A DNA stretch of 23,120 nucleotides from Planctomycetaceae bacterium (GTDB lineage: Bacteria > Planctomycetota > Phycisphaerae > SM23-33). The notes below the pieces were generated by a model. The model did no database searches. It saw only the letters and a list, made by a program, of their open reading frames with translations, and had not been told where the DNA came from. Shown in pieces: positions 4,488 through 20,614 of the stretch. The stretch covers positions 1 through 23,120 of the forward strand of contig JAJFVE010000015.1 in the NCBI GenBank assembly GCA_021371965.1, in the 5' to 3' direction. The position numbers and the translations under genes were made by a program. Each line of letters begins with the position of its first letter. Positions within the stretch are counted from its first letter, which is position 1.

Positions 4488-5603
4488 CTACTTGCCCGGC
4501 GCCAGGTGGATGTCCTTGCAGCGGACCTCCGCGCTGGGCAGCATCGGGAACGCCGCGTGCGGTTCGGTCTGGTACCAGTAGGCCACCGTGGCAAAGTCGT
4601 CGTCGCCCTTGGCCATCTTGCCGCCCTCGGGACCCCAGACCAGGTCCTGGATCGTCACCTTCAGGTCCTGCTTGAAGTGGATCGGGTCCAGCACGTGCCA
4701 GCGGTACAGGCTCCACTTGGTAAACGAGCGGCCGGAGGCGTCGACCGCGCAGTGCGCCAGCGGCACGCCGGAGAAGGCGGTGGTGTGGGCTTCGGGGAAT
4801 CCGTAGCTGCACAGGAAGTAGTCTTCCGTTCCGGTGCCGCAGATGGTCGGGAACTGCTTGTCGCCGTCCATGAAGAACATGATCTCGCCTTCGCCGAACC
4901 AGCGATCGACCGTCTGCGAGACGGCCATGAACGTTCCGACGTAGTGCCCGCGACCCTTGACGCCGTCGAGAATGACGACGGGGTTGGCGTCTTTGCCGTT
5001 GGCGCGGCGGTACTGGGCGTGCAGGTAGGCGGCGTCGGCGGGCACTTCGCCTACGGCGTACGTGATCTGGTAGGCGATCAGCCCGTTGTCGTGCGGCGAT
5101 TCATTGGTGATGGTGACCTTGACGTGCTTGCGGAAGGGCATCGGCCAATAGCAGTTGAAGGCGTTGGCCCGCTTGACGACCACCGGCACGGAATTGACGT
5201 TGGCGTAGATATCGTGCCCGACGGCGAAGAAGTCCGTCACCGGCACTTCGATCGAGGGCTTCTCTTCGCCGTCCCAGTAGAACCGGATGATGTTTGAGCG
5301 GCCGTGAACGCCCATGCTGCCGTTGACCAGCCAGATGTGCTGGATCGTGCCCGGCCCGTCCACGTCCATCAGCGTGACGGTCTGGCCTGCCTTGCACTGC
5401 AGGAACGGGCGAATCTTCCAGCCCTGCCCCAGGTGCGCCACCGACGCGCAGTGGGGCACGTCGGGGTTGCCCACGTCGGGCATAGCCATGGCGGCCTTGC
5501 CCTTTTCGCCCGTGGGGTTCTCGGCGCAGATGCTGCGCGTCTGTGCGTTCTGGAGGATGTGCAGTCCGCCCAAGCCCGTGTTGATGCCTTCAATGGGATT
5601 CAT
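4488..5603 (-). CDS. GH172 (DUF2961) glycosidase-like protein
   Basis: This 371-residue protein has the hallmarks of the DUF2961 family, now GH172: RSICAENPTGEKG near residues 23-35, DGPGTIQHIWL near 82-92, GEGE near 237-240 and GTGTEDYF at 256-263. In the characterised GH172 alpha-D-fructofuranosidase / difructose-anhydride enzymes two glutamates are catalytic; Glu240 and Glu260 are my best guess for the equivalents here. No signal peptide is visible, so it should act in the cytoplasm on an imported sugar. GH172 enzymes work as oligomers of jelly-roll subunits. The start has GGAG 7 nt upstream. It is separated by 203 bp from the propeller gene downstream on the same strand, so it may or may not share a transcript. 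The true substrate (fructofuranosides, arabinofuranosides or other) is open. Confidence 0.85.
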   Translation of the reverse strand: MNPIEGINTGLGGLHILQNAQTRSICAENPTGEKGKAAMAMPDVGNPDVPHCASVAHLGQGWKIRPFLQCKAGQTVTLMDVDGPGTIQHIWLVNGSMGVHGRSNIIRFYWDGEEKPSIEVPVTDFFAVGHDIYANVNSVPVVVKRANAFNCYWPMPFRKHVKVTITNESPHDNGLIAYQITYAVGEVPADAAYLHAQYRRANGKDANPVVILDGVKGRGHYVGTFMAVSQTVDRWFGEGEIMFFMDGDKQFPTICGTGTEDYFLCSYGFPEAHTTAFSGVPLAHCAVDASGRSFTKWSLYRWHVLDPIHFKQDLKVTIQDLVWGPEGGKMAKGDDDFATVAYWYQTEPHAAFPMLPSAEVRCKDIHLAPGK

Positions 5604-5751
5604 CGCGATCTCCGGTTGCCAGTAGGGTGCTTCAGGTTCGCCTCGCCGGTGAGGATTCTACCGCAGCGCGGGCAATGTGCAATCCTTGGAGTTGTGGATT
5701 TCATTCTCCCGCTGGCGGCTTGCGTCTGCGGGTATTGCGTTCGCAAAGCAA

Positions 5752-5781
5752 TTCGCGATGTTGACGCGTATCCGTTATCAT
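5752..5781 (+). promoter_or_regulatory. Weak promoter candidate for the metallophosphoesterase gene
   Basis: TATCAT (5776-5781) lies within GTTATCATGGA, 23 nt before the GTG start. A poor -35 (TTCGCG, 5752-5757) is 18 nt upstream. The call rests on the motif shared with the propeller gene upstream region at 4310-4320. Confidence 0.2.
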
Positions 5782-5804
5782 GGACGTACCGAAAGGAGTC
5801 CTTT

Positions 5805-7376
5805 GTGAAATTAAATTGGCGTTGTGGCTTGATGTTCTGTCTTGTCGCATTCTTCGCCTTCGGGCAGGCCAAGTCGCAGGTCGGGGACAACCCCAAAGAG
5901 CCCGCCGAGGCTGAACCGCCTGCTAAGGAACCGACGACAACGCAACCGGCAAAGCCGAAAGGGCCGAATCTGCTCGCGGCCGCGAAGTGGACCTTCAGCG
6001 TCGACGGCGGCAAGACATTCGCGCCGGCTGTGCAGATCGCGGCCAACCAGAGCCTGCAGATCGTCGCCCATGCAGAGTTCGAGGTGGCCGACCCGGCGGC
6101 GCTGGGCGGATTGGAGGTCGTCATCCCCAAGGGTGGGCCCGACATCACTATCAACGGCAAGGCGCCCGAGGGTCTGCTGCCGCGGATGATCTACAGTACC
6201 TACAGCCTCGACCCGACGAAGGTGCTCATCAAGGGCAAGAACGTCGTGCTGGCGACCAAGACGCTGAACAACAAGACCTCCGCACCCGTCAACGCGGATA
6301 TGCCGGCCGTGCTGACCATGATCGAGCCTCAGAACGTCGGCGTTCAGACCGGCCCGATCCTGGGCTGTGCGGGCGAGGGATTCTTCACCCTCACCTGCCG
6401 CACGAACATGCCCGCGGCCGTCAGTGTCTCGGCCAAGCCCGAGCCGGCTGGCGAGGAAGTGATCGCCGCCTCGCCGCGGGGATACTACCACCGCATGAAG
6501 ATCGTCCTGCCCAAGGACACAAAGGCTTTCACCTACACCGTGACGACTCAGAGCGGTTTGGCCAGGAATACGACCGAGCCCGTGAAGGTGAAAGTGCCCG
6601 GCGCCGCCAAGCCATTCCGCTTCGCGGCCGTGGGCGACTGCCGCTCGAACCCGACGGCGTGGAAGACGATTTCAGATGCGCTCACAGCAGTCGAGCCGGA
6701 ACTAGTGCTCTTCAGCGGCGACCTGGTCGGGGCGGGCAGAGTGGATTTCACCTGGGATCGCGAGTTCGCCGGCCCGGCCAAGACCATGCTCTCGCGCATT
6801 CCGTTCTACACCGTGGCGGGCAATCACGAGCAGAGCGCCGCGGCGTTCTTCACGCTGTTCTATGCCCCTAACGAGACGGGGCGGCCGGACAACTGGGCCC
6901 AGGCAGCCGGCGGGGTGCTGTTCATCGGCATCGACGGCGGAAAACCCAACGACGAGATGACCAAGTTCGTCGAGACAGCATTGGCGGCGTCAAAGGAGAA
7001 GTTCATCTTCCTGATGACGCACTACCCGGCGTATTCGTCGGGCATGCACGGCAAGAGGCCCGACGGCGGGATGGGCTACAGCAAGAAGGTCCTCATGCCG
7101 CTGCTGGCCAAGTACAACGCCACGGCCATGATCGCCGGGCACGACCACGATTACGAGCGGTCGGAGCCGCCGGCCGGGCAGGGCGTGACGTGCATCGTTG
7201 CCGGCGGCGGGGGCGCCCCGCTGTACGGCAGGCAGGGCCGCAACTCGTACTCGAAGGTCTTCCTGACGAAGTTGCACTACTGCATCTTTGAAGTCAAAGG
7301 CGACACGTGCGAGATGAAGGCATATGACGCCCAGGGCAAGGTGCTGGACGAGACGGTATTCAAGGCTCGAAATTAG
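5805..7376 (+). CDS. Secreted calcineurin-like metallophosphoesterase
   Basis: I chose the GTG at 5805 because AAAGGAG lies 6 nt upstream and the next residues form a signal peptide (MKLNWRCGLMFCLVAFFAFG, cleavage near KSQ). The open frame runs further upstream but has no such start. The protein is 523 residues. A Pro/Lys-rich linker and an N-terminal beta-sandwich region (about 50-265) precede the catalytic domain. All five metallophosphoesterase blocks are visible: VGDCR (about 273), SGDLVG (about 304), AGNHE (about 337), THYPAYS (about 405) and AGHDHDYERS (about 444). The layout resembles secreted purple-acid-phosphatase-like enzymes, which bind two metals and hydrolyse phosphomonoesters or diesters outside the cytoplasm. 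It is flanked upstream by the divergent GH172 gene. The TAG stop lies inside an inverted repeat that may act as terminator. Confidence 0.9.
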   Translation: MKLNWRCGLMFCLVAFFAFGQAKSQVGDNPKEPAEAEPPAKEPTTTQPAKPKGPNLLAAAKWTFSVDGGKTFAPAVQIAANQSLQIVAHAEFEVADPAALGGLEVVIPKGGPDITINGKAPEGLLPRMIYSTYSLDPTKVLIKGKNVVLATKTLNNKTSAPVNADMPAVLTMIEPQNVGVQTGPILGCAGEGFFTLTCRTNMPAAVSVSAKPEPAGEEVIAASPRGYYHRMKIVLPKDTKAFTYTVTTQSGLARNTTEPVKVKVPGAAKPFRFAAVGDCRSNPTAWKTISDALTAVEPELVLFSGDLVGAGRVDFTWDREFAGPAKTMLSRIPFYTVAGNHEQSAAAFFTLFYAPNETGRPDNWAQAAGGVLFIGIDGGKPNDEMTKFVETALAASKEKFIFLMTHYPAYSSGMHGKRPDGGMGYSKKVLMPLLAKYNATAMIAGHDHDYERSEPPAGQGVTCIVAGGGGAPLYGRQGRNSYSKVFLTKLHYCIFEVKGDTCEMKAYDAQGKVLDETVFKARN

Positions 7377-7450
7377 CCGCTGAGGTCGCTGAGGACGCTG
7401 AGGATGAAGAAAGATAGAACAATGTCTTCCTCAGCGTCCTCTGCGGCTAA
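7373..7450. repeat. Inverted repeat built from 9-nt units, overlapping a stop codon
   Basis: The left arm starts TTAGCCGC and holds three 9-nt units (CTGAGGTCG, CTGAGGACG, CTGAGGATG). The right arm, read on the minus strand, is TTAGCCGC followed by AGAGGACGC and TGAGGAAGA, one unit fewer. The centre of about 20 nt is AT-rich. The stop codon of the metallophosphoesterase lies in the first bases. It may form a long hairpin and act as a terminator or as a small dispersed element. Confidence 0.75.
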
Positions 7451-7495
7451 TTTAATTCCCGAGAGCATCGAACAACGCGGCTCAAGCGTGAAGAT

Positions 7496-9598
7496 GTGAA
7501 GAAGTTTGTTTCCTCAACTTTGGTTGTCCTTGCCGCAGTGGTCGGCGTGTGGCTATGGAAGAGCCTGCCGCAGGCGCCCGCTCCGGCGACTCAGCCGGCG
7601 GTCAGCACATTCCCCGCACTCGACGCCCGAGGGCGGGCGGGTGAGTTCGTCGGCCTGTGGCGCAGCGTCGCCGAGTACGAAAAGGCGACCGGCAAGAAGC
7701 TCGGGGCGTACAAGCAGTCGCCCATGCTGGGCAAGGCCGTCGCCGAGGGCAAACTGCCGCCGGTGGCCCAGCGCGTCGGCGACGAACCGCTGGTGGTGTA
7801 TCCGCTGGAGAGCATCGGGCGCTACGGGAGCACGCTGAATGTGCTTGGAGCGTACGGGCTGTTCTCGACGGCGAGGATCTTCGCCCACGACCGCGACTAC
7901 CGCAGCGTCTGTCCGGACCTGGCCAAGAGCTGGCGATACGAGAACGGCGGCAAGACGATGGTCGTCACGCTGCGACGCGGGCTCAAGTGGTCCGACGGCC
8001 TGCCCTTCACCACCGACGACGTGATGTTCGCCTACGAGCACATCCTCCTGAACAAGAAACTTACCACCGAGTTTCCACGCGACCTGACGGCCGACGGCAA
8101 ACCGGTGACGATCGTGCGCGACGACGCGGATCCGAAGTACACGTTTCGCATCATTGCCGCGGCGCCGATCCCGCTGATGGAGCTTTACCTGGCGCACTGG
8201 AAGGGGATGCAGGGCTGGGTGTACGAGTGCGCGCACTATATGAAGCAGTTCCATCCGGATTTTGTCGGCGAAGACACCGCCGACCGCTTGGCGCGGGCCG
8301 AAGGATTTCTCGGTTGGGTCGATTACTTCCGCGCCCGTCAGCATTCGCCGGAAGGTCCCAACACCGAACGGGGCATCGGCTGCCCGACAATGGGGCCCTG
8401 GGTGCCGGTTTCGTATTCCAGCACGCAGGACGTGCTGGAGCGCAACCCGTATTACTGGAAAGTCGATCCTGACGGCAACCAACTCCCTTACATCGACCGC
8501 ATGGTCATCACCAAGAACCTCACCGGTGAAGTCGCCAAGCTCAAGATCATGAGCGGCGGCGTCGACCTCGACCTGGGACTCAACCTCGCCCTGGCCGACG
8601 GCCCCACGCTGATGCAGTACCAGCCGCGCGGCGGCTACCGCGCCTTGGTCTGGACTTCGCTATGGGGCTCGGTGGCGCGCTACAGCCTGAATCTCGACCC
8701 GGTGGACCTTTCGCCCGGGGCGGGCACGGCCACACAGCCGGCCTACGATCCCGTCAAGAAGAAGATCTTCAACGACCTGCGATTTCGCCAGGCGCTATCG
8801 CTGGCCATCGACCGCAACGAGATCAACGACAACCTCTTCTTCGGCAACGCCAAACCCGTGCAGGCCAGCGTCGTCCCACTGCCGCAGTACAGCCGCTATT
8901 ACGAGGAATCTTTCGGCCGCTCGTTCGCCCAGTACGATCCCGCCCGCGCCAACGCGCTGCTGGACGAGATGGGCCTGACCGCCCGCGACGGCGACGGCTA
9001 CCGCCTGCGCCCCGACGGCAAGCCGCTGACGATCCTGCTGTACCATCGCTCCGGCTGGGACGACCGGGTGGGGATCGTCGAACTCACGCAGGAGTACTGG
9101 AAGGCCGTCGGCATCCGCATGCAGATCGAGACGCTCGACGGGGCGGCGCTGTACTCGGTTTTCCGCACGGGCAAGTATGACATGTCGTACTGGCACATGG
9201 ACGGCGTGTGCGACGTGCGGTTCCCCACCATGCCGTACCACTTCGTGCCCATGGACATGCGAGTGATCTGGGGACCGACCTGGGCCAATTGCTATCTCGG
9301 CCGCAAGCCCATGCCCGCCGACACCCCGCAGGCCGTGCGTGATCTCTTCGACGCCTACCGCCGCATGGAGCAGGCGCTGACCGAGGCCGAGCGGGTCAAG
9401 TGCGGCCGGGAAATCCTGCGCAGCCAGGCCGAAAACCTCTGGGGCATCGGGACGGTGTCGGCCCCGCCTGTGATCTTCATCGCCAACAGCAGACTGCGCA
9501 ACGTGCCCGAGCACGCGTTCCTGGCGTGGGATACCTTCTACACCGCACCCCTGCCGCCCGAGGCGATCTGGTTCGACGACTCGAAGGGGGTGCGCTGA
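7496..9598 (+). CDS. ABC transporter substrate-binding protein, family 5 (Opp/Dpp/Yej type)
   Basis: The 700-residue protein begins with a membrane anchor or signal (residues 4-22, VSSTLVVLAAVVGVWLW) without a lipobox cysteine. A Pro/Ala-rich linker follows. The SBP_bac_5 signature is clear: SWRYENGGKTMVVTLRRGLK, then WSDGLPFTTDDVMFAYEHIL. Further family blocks are NPYYWKVDPDGNQLPYIDR and LRFQALSLAIDRNEIN-like text near 420-435. The protein is longer than typical OppA (about 540). Family-5 proteins bind peptides, but several bacterial and archaeal ones bind oligosaccharides; the linked GH4 gene favours a sugar ligand. The GTG start has only a weak ribosome-binding site (GTGAAG). The TGA overlaps the next ATG by one base, so it is the first gene of a tight operon. 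Confidence 0.92.
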   Translation: MKKFVSSTLVVLAAVVGVWLWKSLPQAPAPATQPAVSTFPALDARGRAGEFVGLWRSVAEYEKATGKKLGAYKQSPMLGKAVAEGKLPPVAQRVGDEPLVVYPLESIGRYGSTLNVLGAYGLFSTARIFAHDRDYRSVCPDLAKSWRYENGGKTMVVTLRRGLKWSDGLPFTTDDVMFAYEHILLNKKLTTEFPRDLTADGKPVTIVRDDADPKYTFRIIAAAPIPLMELYLAHWKGMQGWVYECAHYMKQFHPDFVGEDTADRLARAEGFLGWVDYFRARQHSPEGPNTERGIGCPTMGPWVPVSYSSTQDVLERNPYYWKVDPDGNQLPYIDRMVITKNLTGEVAKLKIMSGGVDLDLGLNLALADGPTLMQYQPRGGYRALVWTSLWGSVARYSLNLDPVDLSPGAGTATQPAYDPVKKKIFNDLRFRQALSLAIDRNEINDNLFFGNAKPVQASVVPLPQYSRYYEESFGRSFAQYDPARANALLDEMGLTARDGDGYRLRPDGKPLTILLYHRSGWDDRVGIVELTQEYWKAVGIRMQIETLDGAALYSVFRTGKYDMSYWHMDGVCDVRFPTMPYHFVPMDMRVIWGPTWANCYLGRKPMPADTPQAVRDLFDAYRRMEQALTEAERVKCGREILRSQAENLWGIGTVSAPPVIFIANSRLRNVPEHAFLAWDTFYTAPLPPEAIWFDDSKGVR

Positions 9599-10623
9599 TG
9601 CTCAAGTACACCCTGCGGCGCCTGGCGTACATGTGCGTGACGTTGCTGGCGGTCTCGGTCGTGACGTTCATCGTGATCCAGCTTCCGCCGGGCGACTACC
9701 TTACGCAGAAGATCGCCATGCTCCAGGCCACCGGCCAGGCCGGCGACATCGAGAAGATCGAGGGCATGCGCCACAGCTATGGGCTCGACCTGCCGATGTA
9801 CGAGCAGTACATCCGCTGGATGGGGCTGGGGTGGTTCTTCGGCTCGCAGGAGCGCGGCCTGCTGCAGGGATACCTCGGCCGCTCGTTCGAGCAGGAAAAG
9901 CCCGTCAGCGAGTTGCTGGCCGAGCGCGTGCCGCTGACGATGGCGATCTTCCTGGGTTCGGTGATCGTGGTCTATTCGCTGGCGATTCCGATCGGGATCT
10001 ACTCGGCCACGCACAAGTACCGGCTCTCCGACTATGCGGCGATGGCCGGGTCGTTCATCGGCATGTCGGTGCCGGGGTTCCTGCTGGCGCTGATTTTGAT
10101 GTTCGCGATGTTCCACTGGTACGGGCTTAGCCCCGGCGGGGTGTTCTCGCCGCAGTACGTGGGGGCTGCGTGGTCGTGGGGCAGGGTGGGCGACCTGGCG
10201 GCACACCTGGCCGGGCCGCTGCTGGTGGTGGCGATCAACGGCACAGCCGGGCTCATCCGCGTGGTGCGCGGCAATCTGCTCGACCAGCTTCAGCAGCTCT
10301 ACGTGACGACCGCCCGCGCCAAGGGCGTGGCCGAATGGAAGCTGCTGCTCAAGTACCCTGTGCGCGTGGCGATCATCCCGGTCGTCAGCTCGATCGGGTT
10401 CTTGCTTCCGGGCCTTATCGGTGGGCAGGCGATCATCGAGATCGTGCTGGGCCTGCCGACGTTCGGCCCGCTGCTGCTGGCGGCCCTGAAGAGCCAGGAC
10501 ATGTTCCTGGCCGGCAGCGTGGTGATGATCCAGACGCTGCTGGTGGTGGTGGGGGTGTTCCTGTCCGACCTGCTGCTGATGGTGGTGGACCCGCGCATTC
10601 GGCTGACGGGAGGGTCGAAATGA
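9598..10623 (+). CDS. ABC transporter permease, OppB/YejB type
   Basis: This is a 341-residue inner-membrane protein. The N-terminus (KYTLRRLAYMCVTLLAVSVVT, then FIVIQLPPGDYL) is typical of OppB/YejB permeases. Further membrane segments appear near 115-137, 148-175, 195-215, 265-290 and 305-330. The cytoplasmic EAA loop that contacts the ATPase is seen as TTARAKGVAEWKLLLKYPVR. The start overlaps the binding-protein stop (TGATG) with an AAGGGGG ribosome-binding site, indicating translational coupling. It forms the transport channel together with the next gene product. Confidence 0.93.
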   Translation: MLKYTLRRLAYMCVTLLAVSVVTFIVIQLPPGDYLTQKIAMLQATGQAGDIEKIEGMRHSYGLDLPMYEQYIRWMGLGWFFGSQERGLLQGYLGRSFEQEKPVSELLAERVPLTMAIFLGSVIVVYSLAIPIGIYSATHKYRLSDYAAMAGSFIGMSVPGFLLALILMFAMFHWYGLSPGGVFSPQYVGAAWSWGRVGDLAAHLAGPLLVVAINGTAGLIRVVRGNLLDQLQQLYVTTARAKGVAEWKLLLKYPVRVAIIPVVSSIGFLLPGLIGGQAIIEIVLGLPTFGPLLLAALKSQDMFLAGSVVMIQTLLVVVGVFLSDLLLMVVDPRIRLTGGSK

Positions 10624-16956: not shown

Positions 16957-16991
16957 GAACTTTGAACTTCAAACTCCGAACTTCGAACTTT
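16957..16991 (+). repeat. Five heptamer tandem repeats (GAACTTY type)
   Basis: The units are GAACTTT, GAACTTC, AAACTCC, GAACTTC, GAACTTT, ending 20 bp before the DUF4954 start. They are imperfect but in exact 7-nt register. Heptanucleotide short tandem repeats are known from other bacteria, for instance the STRR sequences of cyanobacteria. Confidence 0.7.
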
Positions 16992-17011: not shown

Positions 17012-19225
17012 ATGCCTGACAGACCGCTCAAGGACGAATTGCGCGTCGTGCCCATCATGTCGCTGGGCCACGAGTTCATCACCGGCGACGACGTCCCGCC
17101 GGGAATGACCGAGCATTACCTGCGCGATCTGCAGAACCCCGCCCTCGCCGCCGCTGTCCGCCCGCTGACGGGGCAGGAAGTCGACACGCTGGTCAAGAAC
17201 GGCAACACCGCCGACAACTGGGCCAACCTGCAGGTCGATGGCTCCTTCAACCCGCGATACATCCGCAACTGCGAGTTCTACGGCCTCGTGCGCATCGGCA
17301 AGCTCGAGGAGGTCTTCCTCGAGTACCACGACATGCACGTGCCGGTGGGGCTGACGAACAGCCGTATCATCGCTTGCGACATCGGCGACGACTGCGCCGT
17401 GCACAACGTCCCGTACCTGGCGCATTACATCCTGGGCCAGAACGTCATCCTGCTCAACATCGACGAGATGCACACCACCAACTACGCCAAGTTCGGCAAC
17501 GGCATCGTCAAGGTGCGCGAGGAGGAATCGGTCCGCGTCTACATGGACCTGATCAACGAGTGCAGCGGGCGGCGCATCATGCCCTTCGACGGCATGACGG
17601 CCGGCGACGCGTACATCTGGTCGAAGTACCGCGCTGACGCGGCCCTGATGGAGCGCCTCAAGCAGATCACGCAGCGCGCGTTCGACCCGCGCCGCGGATT
17701 CTACGGCATGGTGGGCGACCGTAGCGTGATCAAGAACTGCGGCATCATCAAGGACGTCAAGATCGGCCCGCACGCCTACATCAAGGGCGCCAACAAGCTC
17801 AAGAACCTCACCATCAACTCCTCGCGCGACGAGCCTTCGCAGATCGGCGAGGGCGTCGAGATGGTCAACGGCATCGTCGGCCTGGGCTGCCACGTGTTCT
17901 ACGGCTGCAAGGCCGTGCGCTTCGTCATGGGCAACGGCAGCAGCCTCAAGTACGGCGCCCGCCTGATCCACTCGTACCTGGGCGACAACTCGACGATCTC
18001 CTGCTGCGAAGTGCTCAACAACCTGATCTTCCCCTGCCACGAGCAGCACCATAACAACTCGTTCCTCATAGCCGCGCTGGTCAAGGGGCAGTCGAACATG
18101 GCCGCCAACGCGACCATCGGCTCCAACCACAACAGCCGCGCGCCCGATGGCGAGCTCATCGCCGGCCGCGGGTTCTGGCCGGGGCTTTGCGTCAGCGTCA
18201 AGCACAACTGCCGCCTGGCGTCGTTCACGCTGCTGACCAAGGGCGACTACCCCGCCGAGATGGACATCGCCCTGCCGTTCTCGCTGCTGAGCAACGACAC
18301 GGCCAACGACCGCCTGATGGTCATGCCCGCGTACTGGTGGCTGTACAACATGTACGCCCTGGTCCGCAACGCCGACAAGTTCGCCGCCCGCGACGCGAGG
18401 CTGACGAAGGTGCAGAAGATCGAGTTCGACTACCTCGCCCCCGACACCGTTGAGGAAATCTTCACCGCCCTGCGCCTGCTCGAACGCTGGGTCGGCCAGG
18501 CTAAGCTCAGAAGCACCGGCGCCGATCCAGACCAGGACGACGCGCAAGTGCTGCCGATTGGCCGCGCGCTGCTGCGCGGACCCGTGCGCGACGTGCAGGT
18601 CCTGCAGGTCATCGGCGAATCGATGGAGCGCTCGCTGCGGCCGGTGGTGATCCAGAAGGCCCACCAGGCCTACGCCGGCTATCGGCAGATGCTGTGCTAC
18701 TACGGCGTGAAGAACTTGCTGGAGTACCTTGGCGCGAGGCCGTCAGCCACGCTCGAGTCGATGAAGAAAGACCTCGCCGCCCCGCGCCAACGCGACTGGG
18801 TGAACCTTGGCGGCCAGCTTGTGCTCGAGCCTGACCTCGCCCAGGTTCAGCAGCGCATCCGCCAGGGACAGTTCCAGGATTGGCCGGCGATCCACCAGGC
18901 ATGGGACGCGCTGTGGCAGAAGTATCCCCTGGACAAGCAGCGCCATGCCTATGCCGCGCTGCTGGATCTGCTGGAGATCCCCGAATTGACCAGCCCCGCC
19001 TGGGACAAAGCCCTGGCCGAGGCCGTCGCCATCGGGCGGCACATCGCCCAGCAGGTGTATCACACCCGCAAGAAGGATTTTGAAGATCCGTTCCGCCGCA
19101 TGGCGTACTCCAGCGAGGAAGAAATGCAAGCCGTCCTGGGCACCGCGGAAGACAACGCCTTCGTTAAGCGAATCACCCAAGTCGCGGAAACCTTCGCCAA
19201 AGCAGCATCCCACGCCCCGCGCTGA
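17012..19225 (+). CDS. DUF4954 family protein with left-handed beta-helix-like repeats, function unknown
   Basis: This 737-residue protein has no signal peptide and should be cytoplasmic. Residues about 50-80 (RPLTGQEVDTLVKNGNTADN, then W) match where many DUF4954 proteins begin, so this one has an N-terminal extension of about 50 residues. Hexapeptide-like turns recur at about 112-170 (SRIIACDIGDDCAV, LGQNVIL) and 235-400 (VIKNCGIIKDVKIGPHAYI, IGEGVEMVNGIVG, YLGDNSTISCCEVLNNLIF), suggesting a beta-helix related to acyl- or nucleotidyl-transferases. The region after about 480 is helical and ends in YHTRKKDFEDPFR, fitting the DUF6819-type C-terminal domain. The ribosome-binding site is weak (AGGG directly before the ATG); an internal Met16 is possible. 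It stands alone, divergent from GH29 and convergent with the collagen-like gene. Confidence 0.85.
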   Translation: MPDRPLKDELRVVPIMSLGHEFITGDDVPPGMTEHYLRDLQNPALAAAVRPLTGQEVDTLVKNGNTADNWANLQVDGSFNPRYIRNCEFYGLVRIGKLEEVFLEYHDMHVPVGLTNSRIIACDIGDDCAVHNVPYLAHYILGQNVILLNIDEMHTTNYAKFGNGIVKVREEESVRVYMDLINECSGRRIMPFDGMTAGDAYIWSKYRADAALMERLKQITQRAFDPRRGFYGMVGDRSVIKNCGIIKDVKIGPHAYIKGANKLKNLTINSSRDEPSQIGEGVEMVNGIVGLGCHVFYGCKAVRFVMGNGSSLKYGARLIHSYLGDNSTISCCEVLNNLIFPCHEQHHNNSFLIAALVKGQSNMAANATIGSNHNSRAPDGELIAGRGFWPGLCVSVKHNCRLASFTLLTKGDYPAEMDIALPFSLLSNDTANDRLMVMPAYWWLYNMYALVRNADKFAARDARLTKVQKIEFDYLAPDTVEEIFTALRLLERWVGQAKLRSTGADPDQDDAQVLPIGRALLRGPVRDVQVLQVIGESMERSLRPVVIQKAHQAYAGYRQMLCYYGVKNLLEYLGARPSATLESMKKDLAAPRQRDWVNLGGQLVLEPDLAQVQQRIRQGQFQDWPAIHQAWDALWQKYPLDKQRHAYAALLDLLEIPELTSPAWDKALAEAVAIGRHIAQQVYHTRKKDFEDPFRRMAYSSEEEMQAVLGTAEDNAFVKRITQVAETFAKAASHAPR

Positions 19226-19376: not shown

Positions 19377-20348
19377 TCACGGGCCGGTCATGATCAGCAC
19401 TTCGACGCGGCCTTCGCGGCGGAGCTTGGCATCGCCGCAATCCATCATCTTGATGCGCTGGCGGGGCACGCCGGCCTGAACGAGCGCATCGCGAACCGCG
19501 TCGGCGCGGCAGCGTTCGAGCTTGCGGTCGTTGCAGATCGAGCGTTCGGGCACATCGATCCCGACGATGATGGACGGGTTACGCTTGAGGTACTCGCCCA
19601 TGTCGGCGATCACGCCGCGCTGGTTGTCCATGATGTCGCAACTCTTGCCACTGAACCAGAACTCGCGGTACGACGCCCAGCAGCGGATCTGGCCGAGAGG
19701 GCCTTGGGCGCCGACAGGACCGGCTTCGCCGACAGGGCCGGCAGGACCAGCGGGGCCTGCGGGACCGGCTACGCCGGGAGTCGTCGCGCCTTTTTCGCCC
19801 TCAGGACCAACGGCACCGACCGGGCCGGTGGGGCCTTGCGGTCCGGGAGGACCGGCAGGACCAACCAGCGTCGGGCCCTTGGAACCGACGGGGCCGTAAG
19901 GTCCGGCGGGGCCTTGCGGTCCGACAGGACCGGCAGGACCGGCGACGGCGGCTTCGCTTTCACCGACAGCGCCGGGCGAGCCCGTGGCGCCCTGGGGACC
20001 CATCGCTCCGACAGGACCGACGGGACCGGCGGGACCGCGCACGTACTCCCCGATGGGACCGGTGGGGCCAACGGGCCCGACCGCGCCCACGGGGCCTTGC
20101 GGTCCCTGGGGCCCCATCTCGCCGACGAGTTGTCGGCCTGCCGGGCCACGCGAACCCCTCATTCCCACGGGTCCAGGCGGGCCTTCAGGTCCTTGTGGTC
20201 CTGCCGGACCGACAAAGTCCATGCGACAGAGCGGGGCACACTCCGTCTTCTTGGGACACAGGCTACAGTTGGCACACCCTGCCGCGAGCATAAGACCCGC
20301 GACCATCCCCACCAAAGTCACTGCGATCACAATTCTGCTTCTTGACAT
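19377..20348 (-). CDS. Collagen-like lipoprotein with OmpA-like C-terminal domain
   Basis: The 323-residue protein starts with a lipoprotein signal (residues 1-24, VAGLMLAAG before Cys25). A Cys-rich head follows, with cysteines at 25, 28, 31, 37 and 41. Residues 47-221 are collagen-like Gly-X-Y triplets arranged as nine triplets plus a dipeptide (LV, VR, EA, LV, TP), an exact 29-residue period. Residues 222-323 fit a divergent OmpA/MotB fold: [20 protein letters not shown], then [19 protein letters not shown] and RVEVLIMTG. Asp265 and Arg281 align with the pair that binds peptidoglycan diaminopimelate in OmpA domains. It may be a lipid-anchored stalk tied to the cell wall. GGGAGG lies upstream of the ATG. 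Five further cysteines lie in the C-terminal part, so disulfides are likely. The gene is monocistronic. Confidence 0.85.
19686..20210 (-). repeat. 87-bp coding repeat units of the collagen-like stalk
   Basis: There are five 87-bp units (starting at 20210, 20123, 20036, 19949 and 19862 on the minus strand) and a terminal block of ten triplets (19775-19686). Each unit encodes nine triplets plus two residues. In unit 4 the first Gly is Ala (AVA); the frame of the period is kept. Confidence 0.85.
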
Positions 20349-20586
20349 GATCCGGTTCCTCCCTTCGTTGTCCTAACGTTTTGACCGACGTGATTGAACC
20401 CCCCAAGGGTGCAAACCCGTCTGCTGATCAGGCCCTCCGGCACTTCCGGATGCCGTTTAATTCTCCCCATCAGGCATGGGCGGCATTTCGCCGACCCCCA
20501 TCCGACAAATATTCTATGCCACGTTCATGCTGGAAGTGGGCAGAAGTTTGAAAACTCTTTCGGGCAAGGACTGCATCGATTGGATC
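20349..20586. other. Intergenic region upstream of the collagen-like gene, no gene seen
   Basis: I see no convincing coding frame. A TAGAAT box on the minus strand (20516-20511) without a good -35 would give an mRNA leader of about 160 nt. A short CCGGCA/TGCCGG-type stem and a G-rich run (20398-20408) lie in that leader. I could not match it to a riboswitch class that I know. Confidence 0.4.
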
Positions 20587-20614
20587 GCAATCCGCAATCC
20601 GCAATCCGCAATCG
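20587..20614. repeat. Four heptamer tandem repeats (GCAATCC type)
   Basis: There are three exact copies of GCAATCC and a fourth, GCAATCG, just downstream of the sulfatase stop. The array is bracketed by GATCGC (20583-20588) and GCGATC (20617-20622), so it can also form a stem on the sulfatase transcript. Confidence 0.75.

Follow-up and report, generated by a model that had tools for sequence, protein, structure and literature searches.

Why should a bacterial collagen-like rod be interrupted at exactly equal steps, and what keeps these steps in place? The question is raised by a gene on the minus strand of contig JAJFVE010000015.1 from a Planctomycetaceae bacterium (assembly GCA_021371965.1; the whole 23,120-nucleotide stretch analysed is referred to as the window). 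A first-pass annotation made from the DNA letters had described a collagen-like stalk at positions 19686..20210 with five 29-residue steps marked by the dipeptides LV, VR, EA, LV and TP, and with a Gly to Ala replacement in the fourth unit that left the register intact. Residues 47-221 parse exactly so: five blocks of 29 residues, each made of nine Gly-X-Y triplets followed by a dipeptide, precede a last block of ten triplets without a dipeptide (9+2, 9+2, 9+2, 9+2, 9+2, 10). The blocks start at residues 47, 76, 105, 134, 163 and 192; the dipeptides close blocks 1-5 in the order given above, and Ala134 opens block 4 where a Gly is expected. The features of the gene are the following.

19377..20348, minus strand: gene of the whole protein, 323 residues (predicted lipoprotein signal, linker, collagen-like rod, OmpA-like domain); from the open reading frame and family alignments
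20274..20348, minus strand: putative signal peptide, residues 1-25, up to the lipobox Cys25 (..LAAGC); assigned by inspection, a hydrophobic stretch and Cys being present also in relatives
20211..20273, minus strand: linker, residues 26-46, containing several Cys; Cys41, the final one, lies six residues before the rod
19686..20210, minus strand: collagen-like rod, residues 47-221 (175 residues); from PF01391 and the fit of Gly slots
20124..20129, minus strand: break 1, LV (G-R-Q-L-V-G)
20037..20042, minus strand: break 2, VR (G-E-Y-V-R-G)
19947..19955, minus strand: break 3, EA, with Ala134 in the place of Gly; Ser131 precedes it, at a position that is Ser in 29/29 rods
19863..19868, minus strand: break 4, LV (G-P-T-L-V-G)
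19776..19781, minus strand: break 5, TP (G-A-T-T-P-G)
19680..19682, minus strand: Cys223, two residues past the rod end
19380..19685, minus strand: predicted OmpA-like C-terminal domain, residues 222-323; from PF00691 and a fold model

Gly occupies 54 of the 55 slots of the window rod, and the collagen profile PF01391 scored 72 bits against a cut-off of 27.2. The G-X-Y-x-x-G arrangement is the 'G4G' type of collagen break, as found in type IV collagen; in animal collagens, the spacing of breaks is irregular. When five breaks were distributed randomly over the 54 triplet boundaries inside the rod, five equal first blocks had a probability of about 3e-6 under this simple null model, which ignores duplication. 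The period is a property of the protein and not a DNA tandem array. Tandem Repeats Finder reported no 87-bp array, and the identity between the six 87-nt blocks showed no excess over triplet-shuffled sequences (0.515 vs 0.506 ± 0.010, p = 0.20). The 87-bp period of the first-pass annotation is thus exact as 29 residues in the protein, but does not exist as a DNA repeat detectable by Tandem Repeats Finder. A recent DNA-level tandem duplication as the source of the period was rejected on the missing array and the shuffle-level identity of the blocks.

Relatives were collected in two ways. A search with the C-terminal domain returned 5 proteins and a search from P0002 returned 25, two of them already known, giving 28 proteins (P0001 to P0028). 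Six-frame searches of genomes with a domain profile (E ≤ 1e-12) gave matches in 9/397 genomes from the class of genome G321, in 3/38 from the order of G445 (all three among the former) and in 6/400 from the order of G321 (two shared with the class matches), making 13 genomes combined. Across the phylum of G001, 105 of 392 genomes matched at E ≤ 1e-3; G321 came first at 2e-37, the next match was at 4.5e-14, and besides G321 seven genomes in all were below 1e-12. A scripted scan of the fetched part of these loci (L020-L048) found no six-block rod. The layout was then fitted to 43 proteins: the window protein, the 28 database proteins and 14 proteins from genomic loci. The whole layout, defined by a minimum of 50 filled Gly slots out of 55, was present in 29 of the 43, namely the window protein, 14 of the P proteins and all 14 proteins from genomic loci, which come from 13 genomes. 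Left out were two proteins without collagen (P0006, P0019), five with a shorter, unbroken collagen (P0003-P0005, P0018, P0028) and five whose sequence starts within the rod and stays in phase as far as it goes (P0013, which has one altered Gly, P0016, P0020, which is almost identical to L050 but starts later, P0026 and P0027), along with P0015 and P0007, described below. Fragments L060 and L061 were not counted, nor were L058, L059 and L066-L070, which are extra domain matches in counted proteins. Genome G503 holds two different family copies, L051 and L057, and both display the exact layout.

The rod was invariant in architecture across these 29 proteins and variable in nearly everything else. 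None contained an insertion or deletion; all 55 Gly slots were filled in 26 rods and 54 in the remaining three (window, P0001 and P0023). Pairwise rod identity was 0.41-0.80, hence below 90% throughout, and identity at non-Gly sites averaged 0.36 (range 0.14-0.71). The first Trp of the downstream domain is separated from the rod by two residues in 29/29. The length of the linker varies (21 to 61 residues from the Cys to the rod, setting aside the mis-assigned rows L055 and L057, and P0025, which has no assignment), as does the number of OmpA-like domains (one in 17 proteins, two in 10 and three in 2). The nearest relative of the window protein, L049 from G445, differs from it at 41/120 non-Gly rod sites within the same gapless layout, with dN 0.19 and dS 0.55 (nonsynonymous and synonymous divergence); three more rod pairs gave dN 0.15-0.19 and dS 0.51-0.87. 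At the Ala134 site, L049 has Gly and P0001 has Ala, as in the window. The comparison of orthologues that the first-pass annotation had proposed found the breaks in phase in all 29 whole rods, the deviants P0015 and P0007 lying outside this set, so that the irregular spacing named there as a refutation did not turn up. From these alignments, rod length and break spacing look to be under selection.

Each break also carries its own sequence. Across the 29 rods, the mean entropy of the break columns was 1.46 bits, against 1.93 for the other X and Y columns. The majority letters are Y-A-[LVM]-[AV] at break 1, [DAE]-[VLI]-[VA]-[RV] at break 2, A-S-[AG]-[DE] at break 3 (the Ser, block 3 position 27, in 29/29), P-T-L-V-G-P at break 4 (the last Pro, block 5 position 2, in 29/29) and T-T-[AP] at break 5. 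The number of a block could be recovered from its sequence for 152 of 174 blocks. X and Y residues were shared more between same-numbered blocks of different proteins (0.348) than between different blocks of the same protein (0.272) or of different proteins (0.226).

Cysteines flanking the rod follow an all-or-none pattern. A Cys at most 12 residues before the rod and another at the second residue after it were both present in 13/29 proteins and both missing in 16/29; a flank on one side only was found in none of the 29, and no Cys was found inside any of the 29 rods. On the tree this pattern requires three changes, at least two of which are forced by well-supported branches. A Fisher test overstates the pairing, because there are just three changes. 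The Cys pairs fit disulfide-locked trimer ends, or end-to-end bonds.

Could the breaks be specific binding or modification sites, their spacing mirroring a repeating partner, including rods packed laterally in register? The conserved sequence proper to each break, the invariant Ser and Pro, the even spacing that lateral packing would need and the paired Cys flanks all speak for this explanation, which we regard as possible though unlikely. Two separate trimer locks lost together would account equally well for the Cys pattern, and no partner gene was found in 15 neighbourhoods (the window and L071-L084). No conserved operon was found there either, no other gene family occurring in more than two neighbourhoods; the survey is a weak method, since several contigs are short and the rough longest-open-reading-frame gene picking skipped even the family's own gene in L071 and L084.

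Control collagens were used to ask how usual such regularity is. In the same class, 93 of 337 genomes matched collagen at E ≤ 1e-5. The best 30 loci, taken as the control, had runs of up to 143 triplets, with breaks of at most six residues in 3/30; two equal successive break steps were found in none of the 30. In the order of G445, PF01391 matched 7/38 genomes, and the non-family collagens of L323, L327, L328 and L339 have long runs without a break or are irregularly broken. A scripted scan of all loci collected by then found six-block chains in family loci only. The large collagen L009 (genome G001), the one inspected by eye among 18 loci, comes from the Phycisphaerales, which NCBI places in Planctomycetota; it was considered and rejected as another, differently regular design. 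At L009 positions 5518-9798 it encodes a 1426-residue protein in which collagen blocks alternate with repeated short inserts (WMG.WDSM..Y). The claim of the first-pass annotation that the interruptions look selected is supported by the breaks in phase in 29 rods, the higher conservation of break columns and the 30 class collagens without regular breaks.

Viral-contig DNA in the IMG/VR database contained at least 120 stretches with three nine-triplet blocks at 29 residues (L085-L204), and a simple collagen filter was passed by 213 of 247 overlapping viral matches among the matches listed, the scope of all viral counts given here. Viral breaks in these 29-residue loci were mostly Gly-X-Gly, unlike those of the family; the same analysis drew on 78 of the 118 loci of the neutral sample described next, and its repeat covers all 118. 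Chains of more than five blocks were found in none of the 120 loci, unlike the six-block rod of the family. In a neutral viral sample, obtained with a pattern that demands nine triplets in a row and is otherwise blind to spacing, 118 new loci gave 86 segments and 179 steps. Five of the 179 steps were of 29 residues, and two equal successive steps occurred in 9/86 segments, none of them of 29. Confinement of the 29-residue period to this family is therefore ruled out by the viral collagens, though the neutral sample showed no preference for it. The fixed layout common to divergent relatives was, in this analysis, seen only in this family. Among the viral loci, L092 and L203 have G-x-x-[VI]-T-G breaks, and in the viral collagen L242 breaks recur every 27 residues in runs of four steps or more, which shows that other regular periods exist.

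An older event has also to be considered: the even spacing may be left over from the duplication of a 29-residue unit and kept by descent, the breaks having no function. Comparing triplets 2-8 between blocks across the family, a comparison that omits the triplets adjoining the breaks, likeness in register was 1.27 times background, against 0.92-1.04 at shifts of one to five triplets; it exceeded 1 in 30/30 ordered block pairs and the shifted mean in 28/29 proteins. An old shared 29-residue unit is therefore likely. As a full explanation for the spacing, however, descent alone seems quite improbable to us: even a difference of up to 86% at non-Gly sites between rods comes without an indel, all four rod pairs compared have dN below dS, the breaks are better conserved than the triplets, and the length of other collagens in the class is variable.

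The C-terminal domain was identified from profile and structural comparisons. PF00691 matched the window domain with E = 6.4e-4 and 20.5 bits, under the cut-off of 27.2, and scored above it on P0001 (34.9 bits), P0002 (43.7) and P0003 (39). AlphaFold modelled residues 221-320 with a predicted local distance difference test (pLDDT) score of 77-97 by blocks of ten, and 58 for the last three residues. The best structural matches of the modelled domain were those of OprF, Pal and OmpA (best E 1.4e-7), and OprF ranked first when the domain profile was compared with PDB sequences. The model thus shows an OmpA-like fold. At the positions that we take to be the diaminopimelate-binding Asp and Arg of OmpA-like domains, Arg281 is invariant in a 22-row alignment; a simple pattern (inspection by eye for P0002) was used to place the Asp slot, which holds Asp in 9/29, Asn in 11 and other residues in 9. 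It is Arg in the window protein and L049, where the OmpA-like domain also has extra cysteines. The protein resembles Pal and OmpA C-terminal proteins as a predicted lipoprotein with an OmpA-like domain. It differs from them in the collagen rod between the predicted lipid and the domain, and in the Arg at the Asp slot. The putative lipobox was recognised by eye in the window protein (LAAGC) and in relatives (VSGC, LTGC, IAGC and others).

Collectively, these data make it probable that the protein forms trimers in which a rod some 50 nm long, with five joints whose spacing is under selection, bears the OmpA-like domains. It would be anchored by a lipid, and three identical chains would wind into a collagen-like triple helix. 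In the trimeric collagen of an E. coli prophage, the length measured by electron microscopy fits 2.9 Å per residue (PMC3368898). The window rod was scaled by this value, so its 175 residues at roughly 0.29 nm would measure about 50 nm, and the five two-residue insertions would split it into six nearly equal parts, each about 8.3 nm long. What selection would hold constant is the overall length, the spacing of 29 residues and the separate sequence of each break; the intervening triplets would be free to drift. Most likely, the breaks would be local joints at which the rod bends at defined places, as well as register marks, out-of-register chains being penalised because every break has its own sequence. 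The rod would thereby fix the distance between the lipid anchor and the OmpA-like domains, which number one to three.

Several observations weigh against a jointed trimeric rod. The AlphaFold monomer has a pLDDT below 50 over most of the rod, which is uninformative for a triple helix. Fifty nanometres is long for a rod in an ordinary periplasm, so a tether to the wall is not obvious. The rod of P0015 is shortened and begins in block 3, with the phase kept, and that of P0007 is broken; the 29 proteins were picked by the threshold of 50/55 slots, and their count is therefore partly circular. The class control was built from the best Pfam scores and is biased to long unbroken runs. Within the window protein itself, likeness between blocks in register (0.352) was below that at shifts of one and two triplets (0.364 and 0.370).

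A further use of equal segments is conceivable, although we consider it rather doubtful: the rod may be a jointed molecular ruler in which equal 29-residue segments allow packing in register, either between neighbouring rods or within one rod that folds back on itself. The middle of the rod falls at break 3, with 87 residues up to block 4 and 88 after. Antiparallel folding or pairing would bring breaks 1 and 5, and likewise breaks 2 and 4, opposite each other to within about three residues, and the end cysteines would be near enough for bonding. In addition, 29 residues come near to an integral number of thirds of a superhelical turn (-12 and +17 degrees for the two textbook symmetries), which would place the joints near one face; 20 residues fit equally well, and this arithmetic predicts nothing alone. 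Finally, a disordered or polyproline-type spacer without a triple helix, its spacing being incidental, would agree with the low model confidence over the rod but is very improbable, given a PF01391 score of 72 bits and Gly in at least 54/55 slots of 29 rods, which disorder does not need.

The adjoining sulfatase also lies beside the nearest relative, L049 (89% identical), and among the compared neighbourhoods is common to L071 only (89% identical). A DUF4954 protein of 737 residues (window 17012-19225) is convergent with the collagen gene. Genomes G528 and G593 have five neighbours in common, including PAS, KaiC-type and PRC-barrel proteins. Two short repeats were observed in the window: about five copies of GAACTTC at 16957-16990, directly upstream of the DUF4954 gene, and four exact copies of CGCAATC at 20586-20613, between the collagen gene and the sulfatase.

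The Scl, Bcl, Bucl and PclA proteins have the same Gly-X-Y rod between non-collagen domains, some with small interruptions; the accessible text of their review mentions interruptions without regular spacing, and the words 'periodic' and 'OmpA' are absent from it (PMC8968730). The trimeric rods of the E. coli prophage proteins EPclA-D have one conserved break motif, and their ends carry phage-type domains, unlike the window protein (PMC3368898). For peptides of mannan-binding lectin, a study describes a Gly-Gln-Gly break that bends the helix by 11 to 85 degrees and lowers melting; this break is of the Gly-X-Gly form, the window breaks being the longer G-X-Y-x-x-G (PMC9898670). In the open-licence literature, searched through titles, abstract openings and passages and with most subscription journals outside it, no description of evenly spaced breaks in bacterial collagens was found. 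The first-pass annotation knew of no bacterial collagen-like protein described with this period; the 29-residue spacing itself is not unique, as it recurs in the viral stretches described above.

The role of breaks in the collagen helix is a standing question. Five equidistant breaks, each with its own sequence and present in divergent relatives, would constitute a natural experiment on register, bending and packing. For materials work, the family may offer a ready-made bacterial collagen with even joints.
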